From Sacculina carcini (Eukaryota; Arthropoda; Thecostraca; Sacculinidae), in assembly GCA_916048095.2 (NCBI GenBank), contig OU696572.1, positions 1,942,162 through 2,006,161 of the forward strand: a DNA stretch of 64,000 nt, given 5' to 3'. This document shows, piece by piece, positions 19,101 to 63,234 of the stretch (positions within the stretch are counted from its first letter, which is position 1; each line of letters opens with the position of its first letter). Below the pieces are notes generated by a model that did not search any database, was not told where the DNA came from, and was given only the letters and a program-made list of their open reading frames with translations. The translations under genes and the position numbers were made by a program.

Positions 19101-21891
19101 GGGCAACGCTGGATGGCTGTGACAGTTTTTCGTGCTCGTTTAAGGTTAAAGTTGGTAATTTGAACACTGTATTTGCCACTCCTACTAGCTCACGTCTCCA
19201 ACGACGTCTTCTTCGACGTCGAGATGAATTCAAAATTGATGTATGCATAGAACGATCGCCATTTGGTCCCCTAGAGTGTATCGGCTCATCGGATGCATTT
19301 GTTGAAGAAAACGTAACACGACGGTGCGATGTTTTTGGACGCCTTGCTCTGAGCCAACGCCGGCGTCTACGTAAATGCCAGTTCTCCGCAGCATCAGTGT
19401 AGCTGGTGTCAGCTGATGTCGTATACTCCCAACCATCCTTATCTACTGCATCATTCAAATCTTGCTGCCAATCACCTTCCCACTGCCAGCCGGAAGGAAC
19501 AGTCATATCTTCGAGATGCTCCATTGGCACACCATTGTAATCTGTGTAGAGATTCAGGGAATGCTGCCATTTGCCTCCAGGTTCTCGAAATTGTGCTTCA
19601 AATATTTGATCAAGCTCTAGTGCATGTCCAGTTTCGTCAGACTTTAGCAGACAAGGCCCTTGGTCAGCGTGCCATTCATCACAAAATTTCCACCCACACG
19701 GAGCTTCAATGGCGTGAATTGGTACTGTATGGTTGCCATAGTCATTCGACCATGCAGTTCGAGACAATTTTGTCAAAGTCCTAGGTGACCTTTGGCAAGA
19801 AGGAAGTACCTGGTCTTCAAACGCTTCAGCATAGAATGACATTCTTCCGTCTTTCAGGTTGTCGTACCAATCATAGTAGTTCTCTTGCTGACCCAACCAT
19901 AATTTCGCTCTGACCTGGGCGACAACGTGCTGCATGTCATCCTGCAGTCCTGGAGGATAAATATGGAGTGTTTGTGTTTGTCGGCAGCTAATTCCCTTAT
20001 AGACGTGTTTGTCAGAGAGTTTGGTGTACATAACATCGCTGGCCTTGATACGTGCGTAGGCCACGCGTTCTCTGTTGATCAGCATCCACAGAAAAATGTC
20101 GGGCACAGAAATCTGCGGGTCTGCAACTGTATCGCGTATGCATAAAAGACAGCTTTTGCAAGCGTCTAATGCGGTCTTATAAGTGGTGGCTTCGGAACTT
20201 ACGTTGATGACCAGCCTCTTCAATTTACAAAGTCTCGTTTTTCTCAAGACGCGTAATTGTATATCTAACTCAGTCGCATTCGACTGGAAACAAGCGAGAG
20301 CTCCACTCAAAGCGCTAAGAATATTCTCCGTCATTATTGACAACAATCTACTTGCACTTTCAAATGTTTCTCGTGCCTTTTTAGCGGCTACCAAAGATTT
20401 CATCGTCTGCTCTATGCTAAGATATATACAGGAAAGGGCATTACAAGTGCTGACACGGCACTCAACATTTTCACAGTTCGTTTCAATAATCATGCATGGT
20501 CTTTCGTTACCAAGTGGGACAAAGAAGTATTTTTCACCATCGGACATTGAAGTCATTGGCTGTGTAGTTGACCTACCACCCATTCCTTCTGTTTCAGCCA
20601 TATCACATGTTACACCCATAGATATTTCAAATTCAATTTCGTTGTAGTGCTTATTAAGCAGCCCGATACTTTCAATCATACAAATTAAAATGTATCTATC
20701 GGTCATTACCTTGGGCGAGACTTTAGGAGCAATGGATTCTGAGGGATTTAATTTAGGCTCTCCTAAGACTGTATTTATGCTCAATAATACTCTACCTCTA
20801 TATGCGCATCCTTCCATAAGACATCTGTTGATGCGTTTTGCTCTATTTAGCTCCATAAAGTTGACTATATTCAAAGCACCGTAGAAATTCACGAAGGCAG
20901 GGCCGAATGTTGGCAGAAACGCGTCATCTCCAGCTCTGCTGATTTGATCCAGCGGTATTTTGCACATAGAAATCATACTGCTGTTACCAAATTTACTCCA
21001 ATTGAGCAGTCTAATATTGATGAAATTCGTCAGTGGTGGATGATAAAATGGGATATGTAACCTTTGATTAAATTCCAGGTCAGCATTAGCATTAATGGCC
21101 TCTGTAGCATTGGTGACACCGGCAAAATCCACTTCAATATACGGTCTTGCTGGGAAAAACTTACCGCTCAATTTTCCAGGCACGAAACGGACAACTTCAC
21201 CACCAAAGATATCCACAACAAGAGTGGCCAGTCGAAATCCAGCCGTGCTGTAAAAATTAATACTCGCTTCATTCTCGGATTCAGAGCTTGCCGTGTGATC
21301 CATACTAGGACTTTTGTCTTGAGGACCAAGCAGAGCGACACTGACCTTAAGAAATCCAGCCGCTTCACCAATAAACTCCTCTTGGGCGTTAAGAAGTGGA
21401 AGCCATCTGCCAATAATGGCATGCTCTGGCTGGTCGTACACATTGCCCAAGTTCACAGTAGCTCGCCCTATCAACTGCTTGGCGCGTAAAAGTTTTGTGT
21501 TACAGACACGGAACTCAACATCAGTTGCCCACATTTCATCCGGAAGTTTTACCATTGATAGATAGAAAGATTCTTCGTAGGAGGGCTCCCGCGTTGATGT
21601 TTGTACTTGCGTACACTTGACATGACCGGCAACTAGAACTTTGCATGCAGTATTCAAATTTGACTCCACCATCAATTGCTTTGCTTTCAGCACTTGGACG
21701 TGTAGATAGAATTCTGTCGCTTTTTTCGGTAGGCTATCCCTAGCTTTTGGCAAGGTATTAATATCACCAATCAGCGTGTTTGACCTTGAAATACTCCCTT
21801 TTGATGGAGTTGTTCCGTTGCTTATAGACATTCCAGTCCGTGCTGTTGTATTTTTCATTTCTATTCTTGAAGAGTCTTCAGAATTCATCAT
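16108..21891 (-). CDS. Ferlin, dysferlin/myoferlin type, single exon
   Basis: Ferlins are tail-anchored, multi-C2 proteins that drive calcium-dependent membrane fusion and repair. This one is 1927 aa from a double Met start to a stop near the membrane anchor. Seen in order: C2A (about 60-170); FerI/C2B region (about 219-350); FerB region (about 550-650, with VPDIFLWMLINRERVAYARI); DysF region (about 730-850, with CGWKFCDEWHAD and PSGWQWEGDW, Arg-rich at 841-851 and 891-900); a C2 domain near 943-1070 with the calcium-site pattern GDRSGLSDPYV; C2E near 1090; C2F near 1337-1470 (KDLGGMSDPFLKI); C2G near 1572-1710 (FQVWDDDIIGKDDFLGE); and one membrane helix at about 1892-1914 with a short tail. 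DysF separates type-I ferlins from otoferlin. The oddity is the complete lack of introns, whereas animal ferlin genes normally have dozens and neighbouring genes here are spliced. On the minus strand a run of eight A follows about 200 bp after the stop. A functional retrocopy or intron loss are the two readings. Confidence 0.93.
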   Translation of the reverse strand: MMNSEDSSRIEMKNTTARTGMSISNGTTPSKGSISRSNTLIGDINTLPKARDSLPKKATEFYLHVQVLKAKQLMVESNLNTACKVLVAGHVKCTQVQTSTREPSYEESFYLSMVKLPDEMWATDVEFRVCNTKLLRAKQLIGRATVNLGNVYDQPEHAIIGRWLPLLNAQEEFIGEAAGFLKVSVALLGPQDKSPSMDHTASSESENEASINFYSTAGFRLATLVVDIFGGEVVRFVPGKLSGKFFPARPYIEVDFAGVTNATEAINANADLEFNQRLHIPFYHPPLTNFINIRLLNWSKFGNSSMISMCKIPLDQISRAGDDAFLPTFGPAFVNFYGALNIVNFMELNRAKRINRCLMEGCAYRGRVLLSINTVLGEPKLNPSESIAPKVSPKVMTDRYILICMIESIGLLNKHYNEIEFEISMGVTCDMAETEGMGGRSTTQPMTSMSDGEKYFFVPLGNERPCMIIETNCENVECRVSTCNALSCIYLSIEQTMKSLVAAKKARETFESASRLLSIMTENILSALSGALACFQSNATELDIQLRVLRKTRLCKLKRLVINVSSEATTYKTALDACKSCLLCIRDTVADPQISVPDIFLWMLINRERVAYARIKASDVMYTKLSDKHVYKGISCRQTQTLHIYPPGLQDDMQHVVAQVRAKLWLGQQENYYDWYDNLKDGRMSFYAEAFEDQVLPSCQRSPRTLTKLSRTAWSNDYGNHTVPIHAIEAPCGWKFCDEWHADQGPCLLKSDETGHALELDQIFEAQFREPGGKWQHSLNLYTDYNGVPMEHLEDMTVPSGWQWEGDWQQDLNDAVDKDGWEYTTSADTSYTDAAENWHLRRRRRWLRARRPKTSHRRVTFSSTNASDEPIHSRGPNGDRSMHTSILNSSRRRRRRRWRRELVGVANTVFKLPTLTLNEHEKLSQPSSVALNVYVHHANCFKFQLRAHIYQARQLHSGDRSGLSDPYVVVNFLHHTKRTKHIQATLCPTWNTTIIFDDVTIYGHPLEAITNPPPVNVEVFDHNLFRHPDLLGRSHIPPVGHIDPEISCRPKLQWHMLYHDGEQKGEMLAAFELYCKCGKLPLYSGIRPAVRRTAVEIVCWGLRGMKKTMKMNVFRPFIELQCSGNIVTSGVIKHMKHFPNFDDPFLFMDLMLPTDPSFSPPLVLKVRDHLYCGAKPILGTHVIKSLAKYLVRPTYETKVIGTSFIKNSRTSQETKSKTSAVDVIESQESIIGTKQFDWWSKYYASHPLLDGNNEYIECGYETLRIYGTELEKVPRFNGLQGVLRSFGLHRGKSNDQKENCIGYIKAALSVYSLPADPKADLPPKQIHALPIAGVEELVVRVYIVRCYDLAAKDLGGMSDPFLKIKLGSNQMTTRDNYKAKTLNPIFGALAEFLCKIPAENQLEVSVMDFDLTSKDDLIGSTYIDIENRYFSKNRATCGLPLIYHTYGPNRWRDVKKPSEILDDFCHVNSHSEPDWIAENTVVINNKRYTFAGKGGENSIRPASVGCVKEQVALFALHSLGAVPEHVETRQLFNPAMPGTEQGRIELFVDIFPVNQGVPEHVVDISPRCANKYELRIKLYNVADVIMSEFSKIAGSSMSDVYVKCWLKGVKKKQQTDVHFRCMDGEAMFNWLFVFNIDYIEAERVMVVRGKKQIWTGRESEQRLPPILMFQVWDDDIIGKDDFLGEIELNLSELPHPAKNATECGLHQLNLKENNKTDNQLSNHTNSQIKTKISSEKSGPSKSQLCSESSRGKSAINVDSTFSCDMSEPSDHQKSSIAGQEREESTNQLATENNLWGHLTGAFLKKKKPVENETPIDLWQKRRIRGFWPVLGQKEGVRDCIGKLDMEMELLSEVDAKNSPVAKLEPPDRPGSSFLWFRSPWKTFKYIIWKRHKFLILTVLIILPFAMFGILMVYSMPQVIANRFARIL

Positions 21892-34930: not shown

Positions 34931-35740
34931 ACACGTCGGCGCGTGCCGGGGCTCTCCAAAACCGGTTCAACATACGCATACACATACACACACACACATA
35001 CACACACACGCCAACACTTTTTATATTCATATAACACACTAACATACACACACACACCAAAACATGTGTACACACTAACACAGCTAACACACTAGCACAA
35101 TTAACACACTAACACAGCCGACACTTTTATATTATAAACCAATACATCTAGCACAACTAACACACCTAGCACAACTACCACTGGTAACACAGCAAATAAA
35201 TAGCAATAATTAACGATGATGATGATGATGTCGGTCGATCGGTCGGTCAGTCGATGAAGACATACGGGAAGGTACGATAATCGGGAAGGACCCTGCGTTT
35301 ACTGGACACTAACGTATTAATTCCCCCCCCCCCCCCACCGTAATTATCTTAAAATCTGCAGTCTTTTTAAATTGTCGAAAGGGGACTTTGATTGTGGACC
35401 CAGGCGCCTCTAACAGGGATCGGAAAGCGTCCAAGGAAATAAGCTGCTGCGTGTCGTGTGTTTGTGTGATACCGCGCATTTTTATTATAGTCTTGGTGCC
35501 CCCGTCTGGTGTGTGTACAGTAAAAGCGTAATTTTTGGGAGACAGACAGACTATATGAGAAATATGAGCTGTCTATATGAGCTGTCTATATGACTATATG
35601 AGCTGTCTGCCCCGAAACAACTCAGTTCGTCAGTCATGTCGCCGAGAAAATGCGATGTGTGTATGCGCGGCATTTTTGGTGATGCTCTGTAAATGACTGA
35701 ATCTGTGTCACAGTATATTAGCTGAAAAGGATTAAGGAGT
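34719..35740. other. Polinton spacer with (CA)n and inverted copy of a repeat module
   Basis: Contains (CA)n at 34859-34936, then at about 34936-34985 the complement of the module seen at 50600-50680 (CGGTTTTGGAGAGCCCCGG-like). Beyond it are short CTAACACA repeats and a run of C at 35324. No gene is seen. Confidence 0.6.
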
Positions 35741-38700
35741 TACAGGAGAGAGTAAAGATAAAGTCGGGCTTGGCATGTGACAAAAGCAGCAAGGATGATA
35801 TTAGTTTTAAGCGGACCGGCCACAGTCTTATCTTGTCGATAGGAATACGTCAGCCTCCATACATCGTGCATTGCGCTGTCCCCCTCACTATCGTCAGCCA
35901 CCGATATGAGGTCACACCCTGAGACCTCCATGACGGGATCCTCCAGCAGATCGTATACACGACGCATGGAAGTGACGTATTCAGTCTGCCCCAGGTTTGC
36001 GCGCTGAGCCAACTTGCCCCACTGGCTGTTGAGGCACAATTTGGCCCCAGCTCTCAGGCCCGGATACCTCTCAATGGTTGGCAGGGTTATACCCTCACGC
36101 GCTTCGAGTGTCTGTCGGTAGTCATGTCGGTCGTCGTCAGTCTGCACGTGAGCGGGATAACCCTCGGCGCCGACCTTGAGGTCGTAAAACTTGTTTACAT
36201 ATTGTGCAAACAATCCGCCTGCCTCGCCGTCGTTGAGCTGTGTGGTGTTGGCAAAGTGCCAGAACTCGTGGATGGAAGTGAGCCGATACCCCAACCCCAA
36301 AGTTTTTGCTACTTCCAGCGATACCCAGCTGGAAGTGAGACTGCGCTCCTCGTCCGAATGGTGACACTGCGGCGACCTCGTGGTGAAATTGCCACCGATA
36401 CCCTGCTCGACACATGTTCTACACAGGGTGACCATGAGGCGGTCGTTGATGCGTGCGGGAAGGACGGGAACGTGAAGATTCTGTGGAGGGAGAATGGTGC
36501 AATAAATGATGCCGAAATATTTGTGAAAATCTGCGATGGGAGGACGAAAATGAAAATGTGAGAAGGATGACCAAGGGGAAATTTGCCGTTTTTAAGGATG
36601 TAAGGATACAAGGAGCACACATCAACGTACTCGATCGGCTCGTCACCAGCACATTCGGCGTAGTGACGAAAAACCTCTGTTCGCCCTCCGTAGAACGCGT
36701 CCCGAACATTCATCGGCGGCAAGACTTGCACTGCTTCGGCGCGACAACGTTGGTCGTCATCGTCTCGAAGCAGTGCATCAAATTCACACTCCCAGATGGT
36801 GATGAGAGTTGTGTCGGGTCGGGCTCGCAGTATCGCCAGACGAGCCATGGTAGCATCGTATAGATGGCGCGTTGATGGAGCCCCACTGTTCATCACATAG
36901 CGACAGTTTTTGCTGGCGCCGTTTGAGCACATCCCAGAATGCCGATGACCATGAAAATAGCAACCGAGAAACTCGAAAAGCAGGTGTTGGTCTCCCACTT
37001 TGGCATAGCCGTCCACTTTGTACGACCCAATACGCACCTCACCAGAGTTCAATGCGTGCTGGATATTGATGTCGCGAGACGACGCCTCCAGTTCCAGCCA
37101 CTGGATCGATTTCTTCGAGTAGTAGCCACATGGTCGGTAGTGCTCATGGCTCGGTATCAACTCGACGCTGTCTTTGCGCAAAAACTTTTGACGCCACACC
37201 TCATGACACGCAGATGGAAGCGTGATGCTCTGAAATGGGTCCACCTCAGTCACATCGATGAATTGTTGGCGGAAAGCATACTACCGAGACGAAGTACATT
37301 GACATCGTCGCGGCAGTACGCTCCCATTTCCTGGCGCAGGTCATACTGCCGGCCCACCTGCGAGGCATGCCAAGTGAGAAACTCGGCGCGCTGTTCGGTG
37401 GACATGCGACCCGGGTCGAACATATCGGCTGAAGGAAAAGGACCTAAACAATTTTGATTGTCCGTAGTGTTGAGGAGGTGAGGGAAGAAACCTTTACGGA
37501 CAGGAATGTTGAAAGTTTTGGAAAATTTCACGAGAGGCATAGGAAGGAAACTGAAGGAATCAATGAAATGGAGTTTGGAATTTATAAATTTCATGGAGAG
37601 GATTTTTCTGCCGTTCATGATCAGGTTCATGTTTCTGCCGTTCGCTCACCACACCTTGGCTCAACGCGTAATTGGCAACAATGTTGTTGTCATAACCTTG
37701 GGCATAATGGGCAATGACTTTCGCGTCCTTGAGCATGAAAAGCCACTGACCAAAGTCTTGTCTCGTCGTCGGGCCAGAGAACACATGTTCGTGCTGCTCT
37801 GTCCCACAGTCAGTGCATGGCCGGTCAATGCGATCAAAGCAGGTCTCACAACATACGTGTGCGACACAATGATTGGGTATGTGAAGGCTGGTGCTGGTGT
37901 CAATCATACACTCAAAGTCGTAAAAGATATAGATTTGTTTTTTGTTGACAGAAGATTGATGCGAAGGCTGGAGAAAGCAACGGTGGACGTTTTCCACATC
38001 TATGATCTCGTGGTTCGTGACTCGTTCACGACAGTAAGGGCATATGTGAGTGCCACAGATATGGCGAGTTTTGTACGTGGGGTACAAAATATCACCACAT
38101 CTGGGACACCCGCGCCGCACCTTACAGCGTGATTGTTTGTGAGTCTCAAAACAGGAGCGGGATATGAAATTGAAACTACATTCGGGACAATGGGTTAACG
38201 CACCTTCCCGCTGGCATCGATGAGGCGATCCGCAGTCCTTGCAGCCTCCGGCACAAACATGTTGTCGTGGATGAGTGTAGCGCGTTTGGCATTCCTCGCA
38301 AAAGTATGGAGTGTCGAGGAATGCCGTGATCTTCGTGATGACGTCGAAGTGGCGATGATGATGGTACAGATAGAGATGATGATGTCCTGTGCCTGAAACA
38401 CACACATGCGAATTAATGCAAATTGAATTATATGAATGCAAATCATTAACGCTAACGGAATATTTCTTCTAATTACTCACCGAAGGTTGCGCCGAGTTGC
38501 CCAAAATGATCCGTCGAGTAGACATGGACCCGGTACGCCGACCAACCAGCCACCAACTTTTGGAGCTTCCGCAAGCCCATGCTGGGCAGGGAAAAGCCTA
38601 CCCCGGAATGTTCACACAATTCTCTGGCCTCAGACATGAAACTTGCGGGGTTCCTTGCCAGACGTTGCACACGCATTCGGAAGGCGCTCGACGCGGCATG

Positions 38701-40230: not shown

Positions 40231-42621
40231 TCACTCGGACACGTAATCATTCATCCAGACCGGAGGTAGTCTCTCTCGTACACTTCGTCTAGGGCTTTGC
40301 CTGATGGGCGGTTCCGAAGTTGGTGTTTCGGTGGCCTCAGAGTGATCAACGTTCTCTTCGTCAGCCGGAATGACCACAGGTCTCAAGTCCAATATGTGAC
40401 GAGGTACACCATCCACCGACACATTATTTGACGAGTTCACCCCCGTTACAGTACCACGGGTCCACTGCGAAGTACACTTCCGATCTGGTGGTTTTACCCA
40501 CACTTCCTCGCCGATGTGAACAGCACATTCTTCCGAATCATTATCGACAGTGTATTCTACAAATGTATTTCGCCACTCATACTTGTGTACATTGCGATGA
40601 GGCACTGACGATTCCTCCACACCAACCCTCGGAGACATGTTATACCAGTATACCGCCGTAGTCGGTCGTATGTTACTTCTTTCGGCGAGCGCTTTTATCG
40701 TCCGATGGTGGCGTTCAACAATGCCATTGCCGTTAGGGCGGTAGGCTGCGCGGTAAAACGGCCGAATCTTCCACTTGTCCAGCAGCTCCTGCATTTCTCT
40801 GGAACGAAATGCTCTCCCGTTGTCCATTAACAGCTCACGAGGTGGTCCTCTCTCTCGGAAAACTTCATCCAGATGCTTACATACCTGCTCCGCTGTCTCA
40901 GACCGAAGCTCACGCCACACAGCAAATCTACCTGGTCCGCAATCGACAATCGACAAGTACTGATGGTGTTCATAGTGGGTAACATCCACGGCCAGTCTGC
41001 ACCACACGTCGTTCACACTAAGATGTCCTGCAGCATGACGTGAAGGAGCGGGATCAATGGATTGGCACCGCTCACAGGCTCTCACCACTCGCCGCACAGC
41101 GTCGCGTGACACACTAGGGTCCGCTTGTCGGGCTAAGAAAAGAGTCCTGTCTACGCCCATGTGATGCATGCCATGCATCTGCCGAATTTCATCTGCAGTC
41201 ATTGCACATATATGACTGTCTTCTTTGTCATGTTCACAGCCGCTTTTGACGGCATTTCCAGCTTTGACTAACCATCCCTTTTTCATGCGAGTCAGTTCAT
41301 CAGCTTTATTCTGCGTGGTCGGAACACTCGTGACGGATATTTTCAAACCAAGTTCTGCAATGAGATCGCTCAAAATTCCCAATCTTCTCTTGATCAAGAC
41401 TTCCGCGGCACCCTTTGTCTTCACTCTTCTTTCCCTGTCGATCACTGTGCTTACCCAGCCGGCTACTGTTGCAGAGTCTGTGCGAATATCAATATCCTTC
41501 AATTGCCATTTCACCGCCATGTTCACACCTTTCAGTACTGCATCAAGTTCCGCGACATTGATATGATGTACATCATCAATTTTCCTTTGCCAAGCAGCAT
41601 CTTCAACGATGTGGCCCTCAATCTCCACTGCTGCACCCATTGCAATGCTGCTCGCATCGCACCACACGACACCTTTGTCAGTGACAGAAACATGCCATTT
41701 TCCACCAACCGGATCATCAGATCTCACTCTTTGGACCATATCAGCCACCATCTGCATAACAAAATCGCTAACTGCACTGTCCCATTGTATTCTATCGGTA
41801 TGACGCTTTATGTAGCTACTGGCAATCCTTAGCCACCTAGCAACTGGGTAATGCCCGATCATTTTTCCACACAACGAGAATATATCACGCTTCGTCATGT
41901 TGTCTGAGACGGATGGAATTGCATTGCCCCTGCGAAACACAACACGACCACGATTGTCTTTACTCAATCTGAGACCCAACACAGCACTTCCCTCTATAGA
42001 CACCGGATCTTTCGCTTGCAGGCCATATTTGTTTAAATGGTCGACGACTTCCCTGCCGGACACAGCCGATTCGCATACGATAATGTCATCGATGTATGAA
42101 TCCGTGCTCTTGTTGATGATTTCCGACTGACTCAGAACGGTGCGTACTATTCGATTCACAATTCTCGGTGCGGAGCACAGTCCAAAACCCAGTCTAGTCA
42201 AGCAGAAGACATGGTCATTATATTTCACCAGCTGGTACTTCCATAAATTCGGGGCGATATGCACCTGCAAATACGCGGACTTCAAATCAACGAGTGAAGC
42301 TGGTCCAACTATGCGCCTCCACTTCCTCAGCTTCTCTCCGCACACATCTATAAACTCGTCACCCGTGTGGCTACTGACAAATCCATTTAACTCTCGAAAG
42401 TCCAGCACTGGTCGCACTTTGTTTTTAGTGGGCTGTACCACTGCCATGAGTGGCAGTACGCCTGTGCAGTCTGAATCAGTCCATGGAACAAGAATTCCTT
42501 CCTTAATCCACCGCTGCACCTCGGTGTCAAATTCACCACGGATATCTTCAGTCACTGTCTTGTTGTAACAACCCACTGTTTTTGACAAGAATGGTTCACC
42601 TGCTTTCACCACCCATTCCAC
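40231..42621 (-). CDS. Pol of the gypsy-like element: RT, RNase H, integrase
   Basis: A 796-aa open frame. Reverse transcriptase: VRPVLDFRELNGFV, SLVDLKSAYLQVHI, FGLCSAP and the active-site box YIDDIIV. RNase H: GVVWCDASSIAMGAAVE and later acidic positions. Integrase: a HHMG/C-E-R-C zinc-binding head, then a DDE core with LAVDVTHYEHHQYLSIVDC, LLMDNGRAFRS and NGIVERHHRTIKAL. The domain order RT-RH-IN is that of Ty3/gypsy elements. It is a fossil copy of recent date. Confidence 0.93.
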   Translation of the reverse strand: MEWVVKAGEPFLSKTVGCYNKTVTEDIRGEFDTEVQRWIKEGILVPWTDSDCTGVLPLMAVVQPTKNKVRPVLDFRELNGFVSSHTGDEFIDVCGEKLRKWRRIVGPASLVDLKSAYLQVHIAPNLWKYQLVKYNDHVFCLTRLGFGLCSAPRIVNRIVRTVLSQSEIINKSTDSYIDDIIVCESAVSGREVVDHLNKYGLQAKDPVSIEGSAVLGLRLSKDNRGRVVFRRGNAIPSVSDNMTKRDIFSLCGKMIGHYPVARWLRIASSYIKRHTDRIQWDSAVSDFVMQMVADMVQRVRSDDPVGGKWHVSVTDKGVVWCDASSIAMGAAVEIEGHIVEDAAWQRKIDDVHHINVAELDAVLKGVNMAVKWQLKDIDIRTDSATVAGWVSTVIDRERRVKTKGAAEVLIKRRLGILSDLIAELGLKISVTSVPTTQNKADELTRMKKGWLVKAGNAVKSGCEHDKEDSHICAMTADEIRQMHGMHHMGVDRTLFLARQADPSVSRDAVRRVVRACERCQSIDPAPSRHAAGHLSVNDVWCRLAVDVTHYEHHQYLSIVDCGPGRFAVWRELRSETAEQVCKHLDEVFRERGPPRELLMDNGRAFRSREMQELLDKWKIRPFYRAAYRPNGNGIVERHHRTIKALAERSNIRPTTAVYWYNMSPRVGVEESSVPHRNVHKYEWRNTFVEYTVDNDSEECAVHIGEEVWVKPPDRKCTSQWTRGTVTGVNSSNNVSVDGVPRHILDLRPVVIPADEENVDHSEATETPTSEPPIRQSPRRSVRERLPPVWMNDYVSE

Positions 42622-51745: not shown

Positions 51746-52381
51746 TTCTTCTATGTATCGTTGGACAGTTCGCGCTGTCTGCACCTTTATCCTGGAAACA
51801 CTGCATCTCAATTTCGTGTTCAGCTACCGGCGCCACTGAATCTAGATCGTTCGTGGACTGTTGGACTGGCCGAAATCACATTTTCCGCTCGCTGGTTAAA
51901 TGTAGAAAATCGTATGAATGAATTCGATATTGATGGTGAGACGTTCCAACTCATCACTGGGCACTACATGTCCAATCAGGCGCTGCTGGAAAATTTCCAC
52001 TATGTTTGCGGTAGACAAGTGCTCACTCTGGATGCTGGTGGACATATATGGTGTGGGGACACTGACGTATCAGTAAGCACCAAAATAGCTAGGGCTCTTG
52101 GGTTCACCAGCCACGTAGTGTCAGATAGTCGCGTTGTTATTGCAAAACATACACGCTCGTCGAATGTGATGGATGTTAGTCGACTCAACCCAACATTTTT
52201 GTATATCTACATGGACAAGCTACAGGCGCAGATGGTTTGTGATACTATGGCTCCGGTATTACGCGTTGTCAGCCCGTACACGAACGATATACAATCACCT
52301 CAAATTCATCGAACATTCAATCAAATTCAGTATGTACCGCTGGAAGATGAGTTCATTACCGATCTGGGAGTGCATAAATGA
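51746..52381 (+). CDS. Polinton minor-capsid-like protein, copy B
   Basis: Starts around FYVSLDSS; the exact start is not evident. The following phrases PGNTASQFRVQLPAPLNLD and SWTVGLAEITFSARW line up with copy A, so the two are paralogues in tandem. Its end overlaps the next start in an ATGA. Probable capsid component; the role split between copies A and B is unknown. Confidence 0.7.
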   Translation, partial: FFYVSLDSSRCLHLYPGNTASQFRVQLPAPLNLDRSWTVGLAEITFSARWLNVENRMNEFDIDGETFQLITGHYMSNQALLENFHYVCGRQVLTLDAGGHIWCGDTDVSVSTKIARALGFTSHVVSDSRVVIAKHTRSSNVMDVSRLNPTFLYIYMDKLQAQMVCDTMAPVLRVVSPYTNDIQSPQIHRTFNQIQYVPLEDEFITDLGVHK

Positions 52382-52845
52382 TAGAGCAATTGGGAATTTG
52401 TTCCATTTCACCACGGTCATTCGTACCTGACACTAAATTTTATGCAAAAACAACAATGACAAATGCTCAGTTGATATTTCGAGGTCCAATGATACAGCGT
52501 GGCAGCAGACTTGGGAGTATTTTCGGAGGCTTAATGAGAGTGGTGATACCCGCCGTCAAAACTGTTGCCAAACAACCTCTCACAAAATATCTGGCCAAAT
52601 CCGCCTTGAAGACGGGGGTACGCAAACTGCAAGACGTTCTCGACGGAGAAAATGCAAGTCAAGCCGTCCGCAATCGCTCTCGACACGAAGCTAAACGTAT
52701 TCTTCGAATCAGTATAAATAGTGTAAATCGTTCGACGAATCAATCAGTCTCTCGACGACCGACGAAACGAAAAGGTGTTGGTCAACGACGTCAACAGGAA
52801 CGCGACATCTTTGACAATGCAAAACGTAGACCAATGCGCTTGTGA
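52378..52845 (+). CDS. Small basic Polinton protein with hydrophobic segment
   Basis: 155 aa. A Gly-rich hydrophobic stretch (SRLGSIFGGLMRVVIPAVKT) is followed by a Lys/Arg-rich tail. Similar small proteins stand beside the major capsid gene in other Polintons and recall adenovirus core/membrane-active precursors. That likeness is an inference from size, charge and place. It overlaps both neighbours. Confidence 0.6.
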   Translation: MIEQLGICSISPRSFVPDTKFYAKTTMTNAQLIFRGPMIQRGSRLGSIFGGLMRVVIPAVKTVAKQPLTKYLAKSALKTGVRKLQDVLDGENASQAVRNRSRHEAKRILRISINSVNRSTNQSVSRRPTKRKGVGQRRQQERDIFDNAKRRPMRL

Positions 52846-54105
52846 AATAACCGAGGTATTCTCTCGACCAGTGTTTGAAACCAGTGTGAAATCGTCCAAA
52901 ACCCATGTATATTACCCGATGAGTCGACTAAGCAGCGAAGGTCCGTTTGAATTTCACTTACCTGCGCTCGGTAAATCGTCTACGCGTACATCAAAAACCA
53001 AGCTCTATGGCAAAGCACGTGTTGTCAATCGTGACGGTAGCGTACTAATGGACGACGCCAACGTGAGCGTTGTCAATCTGCTACCACATGCTCTCTTCAA
53101 ACAGATTGACTATCAGATTGGTGAAACTATTGTATCGGATTCAAGCGCGCTCTATGGCTATCATGCCTATCTTGAGACGTTGTTGTCGTATAACCAGAAC
53201 GCTAAAAACGGTCATTTACGGTCGGGTTTTTGGCGTAAAGATACTGCTGGACACTTGAATGATGTTAAACTTTTGAACATTGGTTTTAACGAGCGCAAAC
53301 AATGGGTGGCTGGAAGCAAAGTTTTTGATTTGTGTATACCGCTACAGCTGGATACCAACCATCAATGTCGTATATTGCCGGTACAGTTTCGGAGAAACTC
53401 AAACTCATTCGAAACTCTGATCAGTTTGCTCTACTCGGTGCCGAGGGAGAATACAAGATTGAAATTGTCGACCCGTGTGTGCATGTCGAGAAAATAACGC
53501 TTTCCGACTCGATGTGGGTGAATTTTCACAAACAGTTTGCGAAGACACCAGCCCATTATCCTATTCCACGAGTTCTACTGAAAACATATACTCTCCCCAA
53601 AGGAAACATGAGTGGAACGCTGAATAATATTTTCACCTCACAAGTGCCGCGACAAATTCTGCTGAGACTCGTAAGCACTGAAGCGTATCATGGATCGCTA
53701 CAGAAAAACCCATGGAATTTTCACCACTACCATCTAAACAGTCTTCAGTTCTATATAAATGGCGAGCCGTACCCCACGCACCCCTATCGCCCCGATTTCA
53801 CAAATGGTCTATATATGAGATCGTATCTGTCACTGTTTGACGGCACCGGCCTCGATACGGAAAACCAGGGCCTGGATATCACACATGATGATTATGCGTC
53901 CGGCTATATTCTGTTTATTGTAGATTTGACTCCGGATCAGTGTGGTGGTGATCATTTGCATCCGCGTGAACAAGGTAATGTGAGGTGTGAGATGGCATTC
54001 TCCTACGCTCTAGCCGAGACAATTAACGTTCTAATCTACGCCACGTTTGAAAACGAAATCACAATTGACAGCGCCGGACGAGTCAGCACAGATTTTCAAT
54101 TATGA
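52817..54105 (+). pseudogene. Polinton major capsid protein (MCP), broken
   Basis: The double jelly-roll shell protein. Typical phrases: VYYPMSRLSSEGPFEFHLPA near the start, VNLLPHALFKQIDYQIGE, YGYHAYLETLLSYNQNAK, and later FTNGLYMRSYLSLFDGTG and INVLIYATFENEI near the end. They match the well-known arthropod and nematode Polinton capsid family. Broken, with about one break. Its end overlaps the protease start in an ATGA. Confidence 0.9.
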
Positions 54106-55135: not shown

Positions 55136-58000
55136 TCATAGGGAAGCGTAAGGTGTAAGAGTGCGAGAAGTGGGATCAAAAGATTTAGCAAAAAGATATT
55201 TACGAAGTGAGGAGGAAAATCTACTAAAGGATGAAGAGGAAGTGATTGAGGAAGGAAGATCATTGTAGACCCGAGGCGAATAGAAAGAAAAGGATTTTGC
55301 GGACCAAGGTGCCTCGTTGATAGAGCGAGGACAGGATAAAGGACGATGAACACGAGAATTAAAGTCATTAGAAGAAACTAGAAGATCAAAAAGATAGGAC
55401 GGGGAAGAGCTATTGTGCAGAATTTTATATATGAGACAACACAGCCGAAAATGAATCCTAGGAATGATGGGAAGCCAGTGGAATCGGAACAAGAATTGAG
55501 AGGTAAGGCGGCAAGGTGTAGGATGGAGCACAAAACGACAAGATTGATTAATTATTTTTTGAAGGATTTTCAGGGATTTGTTGGTAAGAATGTAGTGGAG
55601 TGAGCTGCAATAATCAAGACGAGAAAGAACAAGAGACTGTATTTATTTAATAGAAGAAGGCTGGTCTAAAAAGGATCGAATAGGGTATAGACTGCGTAAA
55701 ATCAAACGACAGGTGCGCGAAATAGAGACAACATTGTTTGAAAAGGACAAGTTGGAATCGAAGATATCACCCAAGTTACGAACAGAGGAAGATACAGCGA
55801 TTGGGAGTAGTGGAGGAGAAATGCGCGGAGGGTGAAGGATACGAAATTCAGACTTGGAAGTGTTGAGAATGAGGCGACGAGAAGTGGTCCAGGACGTAAT
55901 ATCAGAGAGAATATCATTGAGAAGAGTGGCATGAGAGAAAGGACATGGAATTAGGAGTTGTATATCATCGGCATAAGTATGGAAAGGAATGTTGTATTTA
56001 CAAAGGACAGGACACAGAGAAGACATGTAGAGATTGAAAAGAGTAGGACCCAGGATAGAACCTTGAGGGACACCAGAAATAAGAGAAGCAGATTTTGAAA
56101 CAGTTGAATTGAAGTTTACTGAAAAAGTGCGACCAGAGAGATAGGATTTGAGGAGAGACAATGCTGACGAGGATAGACCCCGAGAAGAAAAATCATTGAT
56201 AAGAATGGCATGATTGACAAGATCGAAGGCTAGAGACATTTCGAGAAGAACAAGGAGAACTGATTGACGATAGGAAAATTGAGATAAGATTTCATGAGTA
56301 ACTGAAATAAGGACGGATTCCGTAGAGTGACAGGAGCGAAACTCAGATTGGAAAGGATGAAGGACCTGGGAAATAAGGGGAGACAACTGGGAAAAAATAG
56401 CTGATTCAAGGAGTTTTGAAGGAAAGCTGAGAAGAGATGTAGGACGGTAATTACCGCATTCAGACGGATTTAATGTAGGTTTTTTAAGGATAGGATGGAC
56501 AATGGCATGTTTATCAGATAAGAATTGGCCATGAAGAAATGATTAATTAATGAGATGTAATAGATAAGGAACAAGAGAAAATATTGAAGGAGAGATAGCT
56601 CTAAAATTAATAGTATCAGCCGGAGAGGAGGAAATTTTGAGGGAAGATATCATGGTAAGAATATCTGAAAGATGTATTTGCGAGAATGAAGTGAATTGTA
56701 GAGACACACGAGTATGTGTAACAGGGATATTGGAAAAGGGGAGTTTAGATTGAACAGTTAGGACTAGATCAGTGAAATGAGAAGATAATTGAGAGGCAGT
56801 TGGATTAGATAAAGAGGAGTTAGATAGAGAACCAGTGAGAGAGTTTATAGTTGTCCAAAGAGACTTAGGAGATCGGGAGAGCGAAGAGAGACGGGAGGAG
56901 AATTAATTTTGTTTCGCTGCAGACAAGGCCGATATATAAGAAGAGCGGGAAACAGAGAAGGAAGACCAATCAGATGGATGAGATGTACGTTTCCAGATTC
57001 GTAGAAGTGAACGTTGATGTCTTTTCAATAGACGAAGTTGAGAGTTAAACCAAGGAGGAGAAGAATTAGTTGTATTGCGCCGGATAAGTAAAGGAAGCAA
57101 AAAGTCACTGATTTTAGATAAAGCAGAAGATAGGTGGGGATAGATGTCCGAAGGATTCAGGAAATAAAGCGTTTGCAGAGGTAATAAGGAATCAAGTAAT
57201 AGGTAAAACTGCATCGGATCGAATTCTCTAAAGTTACGATAGGCAATCAAAGCAGGAGTATGAGGAGGCAGCGAGGCGACACAAGGAAAAGTGGTAAGAA
57301 GAAGACTATGGTCAGACAAAGAAAGATCGGAAGGAAAGACAGTTACATTGGAGGGAGAATCGTCGGTAGTAAGGACAGGCGATGGGAAAAAGATAAGATC
57401 TAAGGAATGACCGGAGATATGAGTAGGCGAGGAAACAGGAGAGAACAAGCCATGAGAGTCTAAGATAGTTAGAAATTGAGAAGCAAGGACATTAGAGCTA
57501 GGCGAATCCACCCAAAAGTTGAAATCGTCTAGGATAATAAAGCGACTAGAGAAAGATGATATTATGCAGTCGAGGAGAGTAGGAAATTCAGTGAAAAAAG
57601 AAGAGCAAGTGCCAGGATGATTATGGCGATAAATAATGGTGATACAGAACTTCGGAGAAGAAGGCGGTGAAAGTTGTAGAGCAAGGAATTCGAAGGATGA
57701 GAAAGAACGAAGAGACGGAAAAGATAAGACTGAAACATGTAGATATTTAGAGAAAATGCTGCCCACTCCACCACCGGAAGACTTGGTATTTGACCTAGAT
57801 TTGTGTAGGAAGGAGTAACCTGTGTGAATGTTAGAGGAGAAAGAAGGAATGTCGGAGTCAAAGAGCCAGGTTTCAACAAGACACAAAATTGCGAGAGAGT
57901 GGAGGGATAGGATATGGCAGAGATGAGTAGTTTTATTGCGACAGGAACGAATGTTAATAAATCCAATAGGACTATTAGACCAAAGAGAGGAACTAGACAA
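55136..58000 (-). pseudogene. LINE 2 ORF2: endonuclease and reverse transcriptase, frameshifted
   Basis: Endonuclease 56903-58000: GFINIRSCRNK, LCLVETWLFDSD, FIILDDFNFWV (Asp in place of the usual Gly) and SLSDHSLLLT. Reverse transcriptase 55643-56386: SLAFDLVNHAILINDFSSRG, LISGVPQGSILGPTLFNLYM and FHTYADDIQLLIP. A C-terminal part is at 55136-55531 (FRFHWLPIIPRIHFRLCCLI). The middle, about 56387-56902, has no long frame. The phrases fit the CR1/L2/Rex1 group. Confidence 0.88.
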
Positions 58001-58048
58001 GGAAGAGCGTTTAGAGGAATGCTTAGGAGAGGATACTTGGGAGGCTAG

Positions 58049-59085
58049 TCAGGTGGAAGAAGGAGAGACGGACGGACCGGAGGACATAGTGCGGAGCCGG
58101 ATCGAATTTCTTACAGCCAAGAAAGAAGGACAGGAAGAGCTAAAAGATGAATGGTTATGTGGACGCAAAGACGAAGCACAATTGTTGCACCATTCAGGTG
58201 CTGAGCGGTCACAGTCACCAGACCTATGAGGGCCTGCACAATGACCACACATCACAGGACGTGTGCAGTGTGTTTCTTTGTGGCCGAGACCGGCACATCG
58301 ACCACAGTGAGCTACCCAGTAACGATCGTAAACTGGGCATGAACGCAGTTCGATGAAGAGACGGTCACCGGCATTTTTGATGACTGAACGCACAGCTGGT
58401 GAAACAGACAAAACAGCATGTGATATATTATTACGAGGAGTGGTGAAAAATAAAAGTTTGATCTCCGAGTCAGGCACAGATGACAGACAGTATTTTTTTT
58501 GCTTTAGTGAAGAAACGAAAGAATCAGAAGAAAGGTTGGGAGGAATGTTAGCCATAGTAATCTTCGGGCGAAGTTGTATGGCAGTCGGCAGTGAGACTTC
58601 AGCGTCCGGCATGGCCATGCTAACACGATCGGCAGCCTTTTTGGCTGTAGCAGCGGAATCGCAGCGCAGCACCAGTCCGCCATTGACAGCAGGGCGCGAG
58701 GCAGACACCGGAATATCGCGCAGAGCCGGAGCAACGGACGATGTCGAAATGGGCGAGCTAGTCTTCGACTTTAAAACCACAGCATGTGACTGTTTCGGTT
58801 GAGGAGACGGTCGTGGAGTGGTAGAGGAATCCTGTGGTGGCTGACGTAGTTCATTTAGAGTGCCCTCAATGGTCTGCAGGCGCTGGCCAAACGAAGAGAA
58901 ATCTCCAGCCAACCGGATCGCGAACTTAGCTCGACCAAGACAGGGAGAACACACCCAATTGACCATTTTCAGTAGGTCCGTCCTGATACCAGTTAGAGAG
59001 GCACATTTGACGTGGGCCCGCGAATCACATAAGTTGCATCCAACCCATTTGGCAGTCTCACCGGGAGAATTACAAATACAGCATT
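58049..59085 (-). CDS. LINE 2 ORF1 with zinc-binding motifs
   Basis: The Met-started frame is 58049-58966 (305 aa). Its C-terminal part holds Cys/His clusters: CGRCAGLGHKETHC, CGHCAGPHRSGDC and CNNCASSLRPHNHSS. Reading on upstream of the first Met in the same frame to about 59085 gives CCICNSPGETAKWVGCNLCD, then a HVKC and a WVCSPC, a PHD-finger-like spacing. No in-frame Met precedes it before a stop, so either the start is not ATG or this copy is damaged. PHD-bearing ORF1 proteins are known in CR1-type LINEs. Confidence 0.65.
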
Positions 59086-59524: not shown

Positions 59525-60118
59525 TCAACAAATTTTGTTCCGTTTACTTTGTGGTTCACCTTGAACCTCCTTGTGCACAATCATCTTCATTATGTCGGCT
59601 TTAAATTCACGATAAACCTTGGTTTCGGTCAAGTACTGTTTTCTCGAGTCATAGTAGCTCATAACAATGGTCTTCATCCACTCCATTGTGTTGCGGGTCT
59701 CATCGAGCGGCCGGTAAATCTGAGTCTCGTCATTTCGCACCAACGCCACCGACAACACTTTGAATGATAAAGCAGCTGCAACGGCTCCAAGAACAGCATC
59801 TCTCAATGGCCGACTCATAAGTGTATCGATCACAATCTGTAGTGCACGCTCCTCGTTGGTGAATATTCTGACCGCGCCGCGACGAATTTTCCAAAATGGG
59901 TCAAAATATCGCTTCAGTTGCATAATATTAGTAAGCTGTTTTTGTAAGTGTTCGAAATCCGTCTGACTGTGTTTTTCCAGTCGTCCGACAAAAATCGAAA
60001 TCCTCTGCTCCAGCGGGTGTCCACATATTAATGGTGTGTCGGCAACAAACTCTACCGCATGTTGTTCTAATGGTAGGATCCGCTTGGCCGTATCAAAGTT
60101 TGTATTCACCTGACTCAT
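59525..60118 (-). CDS. Unknown Polinton protein, 197 aa
   Basis: I do not recognise it. It starts MSQVNTNFDTAKRILPLEQH. It has a charged, helix-rich middle (FEHLQKQLTNIMQLKRYF), an Ala-rich hydrophobic stretch (DAVLGAVAAALSFKVLSVAL) and a basic tail (QSKRNKIC). No Walker A or metal-binding signature is visible. It is a clean open frame between two insertions, and the codon use is like that of the capsid genes. It belongs to the Polinton by position. Confidence 0.55.
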   Translation of the reverse strand: MSQVNTNFDTAKRILPLEQHAVEFVADTPLICGHPLEQRISIFVGRLEKHSQTDFEHLQKQLTNIMQLKRYFDPFWKIRRGAVRIFTNEERALQIVIDTLMSRPLRDAVLGAVAAALSFKVLSVALVRNDETQIYRPLDETRNTMEWMKTIVMSYYDSRKQYLTETKVYREFKADIMKMIVHKEVQGEPQSKRNKIC

Positions 60119-60300
60119 GTTGACAATTCCGCAATAAAAAACTACACAACCTCACCCGCAAGCGTCTCGAACTCAACTGCGTATCACGACTGAGACTAAT
60201 TGCACTACTTTTCGACGCATGCGTCATAATTATCGCCATCACTCCGTGTTTGATAATTTCGTTCTTACAGTCATTGTTTATCTTTCTTTGTATAAACACC

Positions 60301-60564
60301 ATGAGCTGTGTTTCTCCTGCTACACTAGTGCCTAATTATAACTATCGCTATGTTGGTGGTACTTCGTCAGATAGCAAACACATCATCAGCGAATCGTACA
60401 AGGAGTACACAACGTTTGACGTGTGTCTTTCGGACGCTCTACAAGAAGGTGTTTCTGTGCCTGATACATGGTCGGCTGAACTGGACATTGTGTATGAGAC
60501 ACACGATATGATTTACATCATCAAAATTGATCGAAAAATCAACAAGCATTTGTGTTCACGATGT
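60301..60564 (+). CDS. Unknown Polinton protein, interrupted by an LTR element
   Basis: Starts MSCVSPATLVPNYNYRYVGG with the more upstream Met at 60250 as an alternative that would add a hydrophobic head. About 88 codons are visible before the LTR element enters at 60565. Not recognised. It is divergent from the frame at 59525-60118, with about 180 bp between them that may hold a shared promoter. Confidence 0.45.
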
Positions 60565-61364
60565 TGTGGCGTACACACTTATTCACACACACATGTTTCT
60601 TTTGTATTGATTGTCGTTGTATTATTTTAGTTTATGCGTTGCATGTTTATGTTGTGCGTGTGTTTGCGTTATATTCGTTGCGTGTTTGTTTCATTACATA
60701 AATTCATTTCATTGTATAAATTTACACACTTCGCAATATGATTGTATGTATGTTCGCACCGTGCACACCACCGGATGTGATATTTTCGTCACCTATTTGC
60801 GCCGTGTGTTTACGTCGCCGTCTGGCTATGTCATCGCCGTCTGGCTATGTCGTGTTTGTGTCGCGCTGTATATCCGCGCCGCCTGTGTGCTTGTGTCTGT
60901 CTGTCTGAGCCGCCTGTGTGCGCTGCCCATTCTCCACGCAAGCCGGCGGAAGTACTACTGTGTGTTCACACCACCCACGACGATCGTAGTCCCGCTATTT
61001 CCCGCGACAATTCACACGACTGTTTGCTCAGACGTCGCACGGCACCTTCCAGACGGTCACGTGACCGGTGTCCTACTTGGAGTGAAGGTATTCCGGCCGG
61101 TGCTACAGGTGTTGGACAAGGCAGTCGAGAATAGTGCGTGTTGTCACACAGTGCTAGAGTTGTTCGCTCGCTTCATTGTGTTCCCGCGACTTATTCGTGC
61201 TCCCCGCGTATTCGTGTTCAGCCGCTGCGGGTATCGTATCTTATTGTATTGTTTCGTTATTGTAATTATGTATTAATGTTATGTAATGTGTGAATGTAAT
61301 ATATAGCTGATTTACTAATTGTTTTCTATGCATGTTTAACCGTACTTAACAAGTGTAGTTAACA
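60565..61364 (+). repeat. 5' LTR of the host-gene-bearing element
   Basis: TGTGGCGTAC to GTTAACA. The internal 221-codon open frame is identical in both LTRs but shows no known domain and is taken as accidental. Confidence 0.93.
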
Positions 61365-61366
61365 AG

Positions 61367-61383
61367 TGGTGACCCCGACGTGA
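61367..61383 (+). other. Primer binding site for tRNA-Trp
   Basis: TGGTGACCCCGACGTGA, two bases behind the 5' LTR, is the complement of the CCA-bearing 3' end of animal tRNA-Trp. This primer is the hallmark of the CsRn1/Kabuki group of Ty3/gypsy elements. Confidence 0.88.
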
Positions 61384-61772
61384 TAGCCAACGACTGGCGA
61401 CGCTCCCACCCGAGGTCCTGGGCGCCACTGCAGCGTCACCGAGCTGCTGTTTTTTGCCAGCACGAGCGGCCGACGTGGAGGTGCCGGCAGCGAGGCTGGC
61501 TCGTGCTGGCGTCGGAACACGACGTTGGGATCGGTGGCGCTGGCCACAGCCAGGTGCACGTGCGCCAACGCTGACAGGTGCGGTCGGCGACGATCAGTGA
61601 CGACACACTGGTACCAGCCCGAATCAGCGTCGGCCAGGTTGCTGATCTGCAGTGATCCGTCGCTGCTCTGGCGGTAGCGGCCGTCACCTCCCCCGCTGGT
61701 CAGAGACCGGGACGAAGCAGAGGTAACGCCGTCGACGTCGCTGAAAGTATCGCTGACACGGTACCATTTCAC
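61376..61772 (-). pseudogene. Captured host exon: immunoglobulin plus fibronectin-III fragment
   Basis: On -, directly after a splice-acceptor-like CTTCTTACAG (61773 and up), the frame reads VKWYRVSDTF, then SSDGSLQISNLADADSGWYQ with CVVTD (the DxGxYxC end of an Ig domain), HVHLAV, a linker, and SSSVTLQWRPGPRVGASPVV with GYHV, the first half of an FN3 domain. This is the arrangement of Robo/DCC/contactin-type cell-surface receptors. The FN3 frame runs into the primer binding site, which it overlaps by several bases. The first Ig Cys would be in an upstream exon not present here. GC-rich, unlike its surroundings. Robo is a guess; Ig-FN3 is firm. Confidence 0.8.
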
Positions 61773-61784
61773 CTGTAAGAAGCG

Positions 61785-62157
61785 CTCAGCAACACGCGCA
61801 GCAACGCAGCAACACACTCAGCAACACGCGCAGCAACGCAGCAACACGCTCAGCAACACGCGCAGCAACGCAGCAACATGCTCAGCAACACGCGCAACAA
61901 CGTAGCAACATGCTCAGCAACACGCGCAGCAACGTAGCAACATGCTCAGCAACACGCGCAACAACGTAGCAACATGCTCAGCAACACGCGCAACAACGTA
62001 GCAACATGCTCAGCAACACGCGCAGCAACGCAGCAACATGCTCAGCAACACGCGCAGCAACGTAGCAACATGCTCAGCAACACGCGCAGCAACGCAGCAA
62101 CATGCTCAGCAACACGCGCAACAACGTAGCAACATGCTCAGCAACACGCGCAGCATC
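61785..62157. repeat. 32-bp minisatellite, about 11.6 units
   Basis: Units contain GCTCAGCAACACGCGCAGC followed by AACGYAGCAACAY. It lies just upstream of the captured splice acceptor (reading on -), so it is probably part of the host intron that came along. Its period is not a multiple of three, so it cannot encode a regular peptide. Confidence 0.93.
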
Positions 62158-62239
62158 GCAACATCACTCGCAACAACTTCCCGGTGCGCCAACATCATCA
62201 CAACAATTATCCGGTGACACAGCAACACCACAACACATT

Positions 62240-62307
62240 CATTCTCGATCAGGCCGACGCATCAGGCCACCTGTTCGCTTCTCGCCCTGATCTGAGGAGG
62301 GGGCTCC
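62240..62307 (+). pseudogene. Integrase C-terminal tail and polypurine tract
   Basis: The frame ends HSRSGRRIRPPVRFSP, the usual last residues of Ty3/gypsy integrase. It is followed by GAGGAGGGGG (62294-62303), the plus-strand primer tract, four bases before the 3' LTR. Only this end of pol is left. Confidence 0.75.
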
Positions 62308-63107
62308 TGTGGCGTACACACTTATTCACACACACATGTTTCTTTTGTATTGATTGTCGTTGTATTATTTTAGTTTATGCGTTGCATGTTTATGTTGTGC
62401 GTGTGTTTGCGTTATATTCGTTGCGTGTTTGTTTCATTACATAAATTCATTTCATTGTATAAATTTACACACTTCGCAATATGATTGTATGTATGTTCGC
62501 ACCGTGCACACCACCGGATGTGATATTTTCGTCACCTATTTGCGCCGTGTGTTTACGTCGCCGTCTGGCTATGTCATCGCCGTCTGGCTATGTCGTGTTT
62601 GTGTCGCGCTGTATATCCGCGCCGCCTGTGTGCTTGTGTCTGTCTGTCTGAGCCGCCTGTGTGCGCTGCCCATTCTCCACGCAAGCCGGCGGAAGTACTA
62701 CTGTGTGTTCACACCACCCACGACGATCGTAGTCCCGCTATTTCCCGCGACAATTCACACGACTGTTTGCTCAGACGTCGCACGGCACCTTCCAGACGGT
62801 CACGTGACCGGTGTCCTACTTGGAGTGAAGGTATTCCGGCCGGTGCTACAGGTGTTGGACAAGGCAGTCGAGAATAGTGCGTGTTGTCACACAGTGCTAG
62901 AGTTGTTCGCTCGCTTCATTGTGTTCCCGCGACTTATTCGTGCTCCCCGCGTATTCGTGTTCAGCCGCTGCGGGTATCGTATCTTATTGTATTGTTTCGT
63001 TATTGTAATTATGTATTAATGTTATGTAATGTGTGAATGTAATATATAGCTGATTTACTAATTGTTTTCTATGCATGTTTAACCGTACTTAACAAGTGTA
63101 GTTAACA
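62308..63107 (+). repeat. 3' LTR of the host-gene-bearing element
   Basis: Same length and, as far as read, same sequence as 60565-61364. Confidence 0.93.
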
Positions 63108-63234
63108 ATGTGTTCGTTGAATCTTGTCGTCAATATGATTCTACATGATTTCCACTTGTATATTTGCCATAGTTGTGTATCAAGTGAAAATACACAAGTG
63201 TCATTTCGTTGCAAGTCATTTTTGTATCAATTCC

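Follow-up and report, generated by a model that had tools for sequence, protein, structure and literature searches.

How does a piece of a host gene come to lie in reverse between the two long terminal repeats (LTRs) of a retrotransposon? The question is raised by an insertion at positions 60561-63111 of a 64,000-nucleotide stretch of Sacculina carcini DNA, here called the window. The insertion measures about 2.5 kb in all, with 943 bases between the LTRs, and was compared with the whole assembly (264 Mb, 43 contigs). It consists of the following parts.

60561-60564, no strand: left target site duplication ATGT
60565-61364, plus strand: 5' LTR, TG...CA, 800 bp long and without a difference from the 3' LTR; also recovered in the genome family search
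61367-61384, plus strand: primer binding site of 18 nt, tRNA-Trp type, TGGTGACCCCGACGTGAT; its last base is the capture junction
61385-61787, minus strand: captured exon piece of 403 bases from the host's roundabout-like gene, end of Ig5 and start of FN3-1
61788-62150, plus strand: 32-bp minisatellite of the family's non-autonomous branch
62151-62307, plus strand: 3' tail, of which 62201-62307 matches the autonomous element where its pol ends with integrase
62294-62303, plus strand: polypurine tract GAGGAGGGGG, which precedes the 3' LTR
62308-63107, plus strand: 3' LTR of 800 bp, 0 differences from the 5' LTR
63108-63111, no strand: right target site duplication ATGT

The composite is a real single LTR insertion and is young by the identity of its LTRs. 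Because the LTRs are identical and the duplication lies outside both, it was inserted as one unit. A first-pass annotation had proposed this on the same grounds, and the two identical LTRs, the flanking ATGT, the tRNA-Trp primer site, the polypurine tract and the integrase tail that it listed were all recovered. The last 107 bases of the tail (62201-62307) agree at 97-98% with the end of pol in intact members of the family (98% for one such copy). With an LTR pair, a primer site, a polypurine tract, no gag-pol and an autonomous relative in the genome, the composite is a non-autonomous LTR element. Since host sequence lies between its LTRs and a target duplication encloses the whole, it is also a candidate LTR-mediated retrocopy. 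TRIM elements have very short LTRs and LARD elements exceed 4 kb; the composite, with LTRs of 800 bp and 2.5 kb in total, belongs to neither class.

At 35740-38441 and 51761-54105 of the window lie a type B DNA polymerase frame (PF03175, E 2.9e-13) and frames whose resemblance to Polinton/Maverick capsid genes was judged by eye and without a Pfam match; the composite seems to lie beside or inside a Polinton. A retroelement frame with RT, RNase H, integrase and DUF7047 occupies 40231-42621, and LINE-like frames, judged by eye alone, occupy 55643-58966. A ferlin gene frame at 16108-21891 (C2, FerB, Ferlin_C) runs for 1927 codons without a stop, which is long for a single exon.

The genome search for the donor of the captured piece, which the first-pass annotation had suggested, gave one other match among those listed, on contig C2. 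The raw alignment to this donor spans 412 bases with 8 mismatches. Two of these (61380 and 61383) are bases of the primer site, which leaves 6 in 404, and thus 398 of 404 bases are identical, a match beyond what chance would give. The donor exon has an open frame of 358 residues with two Ig matches and one FN3 match in Pfam. Its best PDB match is human ROBO2, along the entire length (E 3.3e-48), followed by ROBO1. Based on these domain matches and the ROBO2 match, the donor is a roundabout-like (nerve-guidance) gene. Used as a protein query, it gave no hit at E<=0.001 among the 7997 candidates scored.

Within the donor exon, the captured part comprises the closing portion of the second Ig domain and the start of FN3; it lies antisense to the element. 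Antisense capture of a host Ig/FN3 gene piece had been claimed before and is borne out by the donor. The domain reading itself stands in part. The piece has an antisense open frame of 134 codons that scores 28 bits against Pfam V-set, barely above the cut-off of 26, and the donor carries both Ig domains and FN3, but the FN3 start in the captured piece alone stays below significance in the Pfam scan. A search for further copies with LTR and Ig/FN3 sequence had also been proposed as a check: among the matches listed, no second composite of LTR and roundabout-like piece was found in the assembly.

The first-pass annotation had also described a splice acceptor and an intron-like minisatellite, and had concluded that the source was genomic DNA or an unspliced or antisense transcript. 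At the place of the supposed acceptor, the donor reads through in frame as coding sequence (..ERFLQVKW..). The minisatellite is absent from the donor and is carried by other members of the LTR family. As both claims fail, the argument for a genomic, unspliced or antisense source falls with them. The captured piece is contained within one open donor exon, so it carries no information on splicing and cannot tell a DNA template from an RNA template.

We analyzed the family to which the LTRs belong. At least 44 LTR matches are present in the genome (40 of 205 candidates scored). One intact relative, L024, has LTRs that are 99.6% identical to those of the composite and its own 4-bp duplication, ATCT. 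It encodes a gag frame of 328 codons, which contains Pfam DUF7041, and a pol frame of 1067 codons, whose scanned pieces contain RVT_1, Integrase_H2C2 and rve. RVT_1 (3400-4200) comes before rve (4900-5640), and the gag end shows a CHCC motif, C-x2-H-x9-C-x3-C, read by eye. The tRNA-Trp primer site, CHCC gag motif, RT before integrase and 4-bp duplication are those given for the CsRn1 clade of Ty3/gypsy (PwRn1, AgCR) in the available text of PMC2582038. The parent is placed there by these features; the composite differs from the clade in having no gag-pol. The earlier assignment to a Ty3/gypsy element with a tRNA-Trp-type primer site and a 4-bp duplication is supported.

A query with the minisatellite end (76 bases) gave 40 genome matches; 32, counting the one in the window, extend over 73 bases or more. 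In the 30 minisatellite loci examined, the same LTR, minisatellite and tail were found, and the roundabout-like piece was present in the locus of the window only. The minisatellite is a component of the family's non-autonomous branch. In the cleanest sister copy (L025/L038), the leader known from the autonomous element separates the primer site from the minisatellite, so the capture replaced the leader of a derivative already without gag-pol. Contrary to the earlier description, the host piece did not directly take the place of gag-pol. Capture as a common habit of the non-autonomous branch was considered and rejected, with 1 of 30 loci carrying the roundabout-like piece. Three of the others (L046, L054, L065) hold pieces of the autonomous element.

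Several structural peculiarities of the family were observed. The 5' LTR is cut near base 664 and fused directly to mid-leader sequence in at least 20 of the 30 non-autonomous loci, which lack the LTR end and primer site there (L039, L041-L050, L052, L053, L055, L057-L060, L062-L064). In many copies, LTR positions 554-665 occur with one to four extra tandem copies of this 112-bp stretch plus a 12-bp linker (for example L032, L040, L054), and the repeat number can differ between the 5' and 3' LTR of one copy. In L024 (1270-1340), and at the matching place in its relatives, the LTR-end/primer-site motif recurs in imperfect form within the leader, some 40 bases past the first. A copy of the flank at window positions 60071-60248 also adjoins the right side of L024 (93% over 178 bp), which places two family insertions near one repeat. 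On contig C8 (1279000-1284500; L048, L058-L060), direct and inverted family pieces form a knot; one copy in it reads on along the tRNA and from there enters an LTR in reverse orientation.

The junctions of the captured piece were aligned to both parents of the composite, which have T 61384 and GCTC 61784-61787 in common. On the left, the host match begins at the last base of the primer site, 61384. The donor CGACCTGGT and the primer-site end CGACGTGAT are equal at 7 of 9 positions, with the last T shared, which is an exact overlap of 1 base. In the donor region, 51 of 55584 sites match as well as this, and the match was noticed before it was counted. On the right, GCTC is common to donor and minisatellite.

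A pattern read-out found the LTR-end/primer motif in 39 family copies. Nine of these were non-canonical just downstream of the primer site, one test base being required to differ. The read-out spans 17 bases, allowing a change from 10 bases before to 7 bases after primer-site base 18, and it misses about one quarter of non-canonical copies, namely those with T at the test position. Besides the window, the following copies were obtained.

C12: joined to pol, sense; overlap with the primer-site end of 2 nt, as good at 653 of 9458 element sites and within chance; left side read
C18: joined to pol, antisense; exact overlap of 5 nt, as good at 11 of 9458 element sites; left side read
C24: joined to pol, antisense; exact overlap of 6 nt, as good at 2 of 9458 element sites; left side read
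C29: joined to sequence containing an abundant repeat; left side read
C8: 9 nt of tRNA read-through, then LTR in reverse
C3:7600012: change inside the leader
C20 and C23: one-base indels

Five of the nine (window, C12, C18, C24, C29) turn foreign exactly after primer-site base 18. The chance that five foreign junctions share one of 18 equally likely positions is 1e-5. An earlier search directed at the base-18 junction alone gave nine places. In four of them (L070, L071, L072 and L075), the standard leader goes on for 40 bases or more, apart from small changes.

Primer-site base 18 is a landmark of replication. According to the available text of PMC13191261, plus-strand strong-stop DNA stops there because tRNA base 58 is m1A, and its end then pairs with the minus strand. 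Because the host match starts at this very base, which is also the junction base in four sister copies, the junction points to a strong-stop transfer to a wrong template. We consider it probable, on the evidence of the junctions, that the capture arose by transfer of plus-strand strong-stop DNA to sense roundabout-like mRNA instead of its own minus strand. In such a course, the strong-stop would have ended at base 18, before tRNA base 58, and its end CGACGTGAT would have annealed imperfectly to the message, with 7 of 9 positions matching. From there, reverse transcriptase would have extended the strand by about 400 bases in the direction of the message's 5' end, resulting in an antisense product. 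The growing strand would have moved via the 4-base GCTC overlap to the minisatellite on the minus-strand cDNA, the 3' LTR would have been finished, and the product would have been integrated by the enzymes of an autonomous relative. A sense mRNA template gives the antisense orientation without any antisense or unspliced transcript. The sister copies could follow the same rule: mispairing of the strong-stop end on minus-strand DNA would give sense products (C12), and mispairing on sense RNA would give antisense products (C18, C24 and the roundabout-like piece).

Copies that read into the tRNA were analyzed as well. A search with the tRNA tail gave 32 hits with one mismatch allowed, and 20 of these are primer sites that continue past base 58 into the tRNA with CCA kept (L067-L069, L078-L083, L085-L088, L091, L092, L097, L098, L100, L101 and the C8 copy in L058). 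The other 12 were dropped: four lacked CCA (L084, L103 and two in L090), and in eight the upstream sequence was other than the tRNA tail (L089, L093-L096, L099, L102, L104). Across the 21 searched positions, the 20 sites carry six substitutions, and base 58 accounts for four of the six (two G, two T). At least four of six at one given position has a chance of 7e-5, with the pattern having been seen before counting and the copies possibly sharing ancestry (L067 and L088 look alike). Five of the 12 dropped hits are also non-A at the base-58 position. In L085 and L087, read-through reaches the anticodon arm CTCCAGA with anticodon CCA, and in L080 it does so with one change. ARAGORN, run on the tRNA-like stretches of 3, 14 and 30 loci in turn, reported no tRNA gene, and the tRNA-Trp gene itself was not pinned down. 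According to the available text of PMC4787781, an m1A followed by A is misread with little C. The substitution hot spot at base 58 is what misread m1A58 would give, and it supports copying of these ends from a modified tRNA.

Other routes to the same composite have to be weighed. During minus-strand synthesis, a switch from element RNA to an antisense roundabout-like RNA in the same particle, and back at the primer site, would also yield this structure. Switching between element and cellular RNA at short shared sequences is the published model (available text of PMC5408686 and PMC9674220), and the GCTC overlap is compatible with it. However, an antisense transcript is required, and the base-18 junction in five of nine non-canonical copies is left unexplained, the antisense-pol joins included; we regard this switch as unlikely. 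We give a similarly low rating to alternative end joining by the host, which would have linked the strong-stop end to a roundabout-like DNA fragment or cDNA. A review names Pol theta-type repair on primer-site homology in second-strand transfer (available text of PMC12786077), C18 and C24, with overlaps of 5-6 nt, are compatible with such repair, and a single-exon piece cannot separate DNA from RNA. Against it, two joints around a 403-base fragment are needed in one product, and a packaged message is more to be expected than a free roundabout-like DNA fragment. In view of this review, a repair-driven joint is a close rival to mis-priming on a message, and host-repair end joining could give the same left joint. 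Only five foreign junctions are at hand. An assembly artefact, or recombination of a host fragment as DNA into an existing element, is very improbable: no sign of either was seen, and the clean duplication, the intact LTRs and a junction at a replication landmark common to other copies speak against both.

The time of capture bears on one further alternative, namely that a composite master arose long ago and the copy in the window is a late daughter. The captured piece differs from the donor at 6 of 404 bases (1.5%), while 0 differences are found in 800 LTR bases, as an old capture would predict. But no further composite copy was found in the assembly among the matches listed, and all six differences are synonymous. 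The chance of six out of six is 3e-4 to 9e-4 if unconstrained, and about 0.005 by our own arithmetic if both lineages diverged and only the donor side was constrained. We therefore hold an old capture to be quite unlikely. Because all six differences are synonymous, the data favour a recent capture from another donor allele, with a captured copy that has probably hardly changed. The implied synonymous difference of about 0.057 (5.7%) is high for alleles of one species, and given this value the source may instead have been a related species or an unseen haplotype.

LTR-mediated retrocopies in metazoans were reportedly described by Tan et al. in 2016. Such retrocopies resemble the composite in having a host piece between LTRs and a short overlap at the switch point (PMC5408686, PMC9674220, PMC8232201). 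As far as the available text goes, the composite differs from them in being antisense, in coming from a single exon and in having a base-18 junction common to unrelated chimeras; in the published model, as it is quoted, the switch takes place in RNA templates in general. Pxyfem of Plutella is alike in that a reverse-complement host-gene piece is joined to LTR-element sequence, which is ascribed to template switching (available text of PMC9674220). Unlike the composite, Pxyfem is described there as spanning exon-exon joints, being multicopy, having lost its LTRs and making silencing RNAs; the composite has intact LTRs and is present in one copy. Plant Veju/BARE chimeras have likewise acquired foreign sequence by abnormal template switching, although they are from plants and no footprint at the primer-site end is mentioned in the available text of PMC13317346.

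Gene capture by LTR elements is thus already known, and the proposed route with its footprint is the new part. The literature search found no report of host capture at the primer-site end, with most subscription papers outside its reach. In the literature consulted, as far as its text was available, orientation and junction had not pointed to one replication step. A young composite with its donor, an autonomous relative, exact junctions and four sisters broken at the same base makes this step testable. If true, the route would account for the antisense orientation of some captures and, through it, for their ability to give rise to RNA against the parent gene. Were the 5' LTR active, RNA antisense to the roundabout-like gene would be made, with perfect stretches of up to 128 bases; the silencing by Pxyfem is a parallel for this capture, not evidence. 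More tentatively, second-strand transfer may act as an ever-open gate for the capture of genes in antisense. With its primer-site end, strong-stop DNA would promiscuously prime packaged messages, and tRNA-primed LTR elements would in this way make LTR-driven antisense host copies ready to silence the parent gene, as Pxyfem does in Plutella. This gate would also be leaky at the methylated tRNA base 58, whose misreading may be fossilised in the genome.
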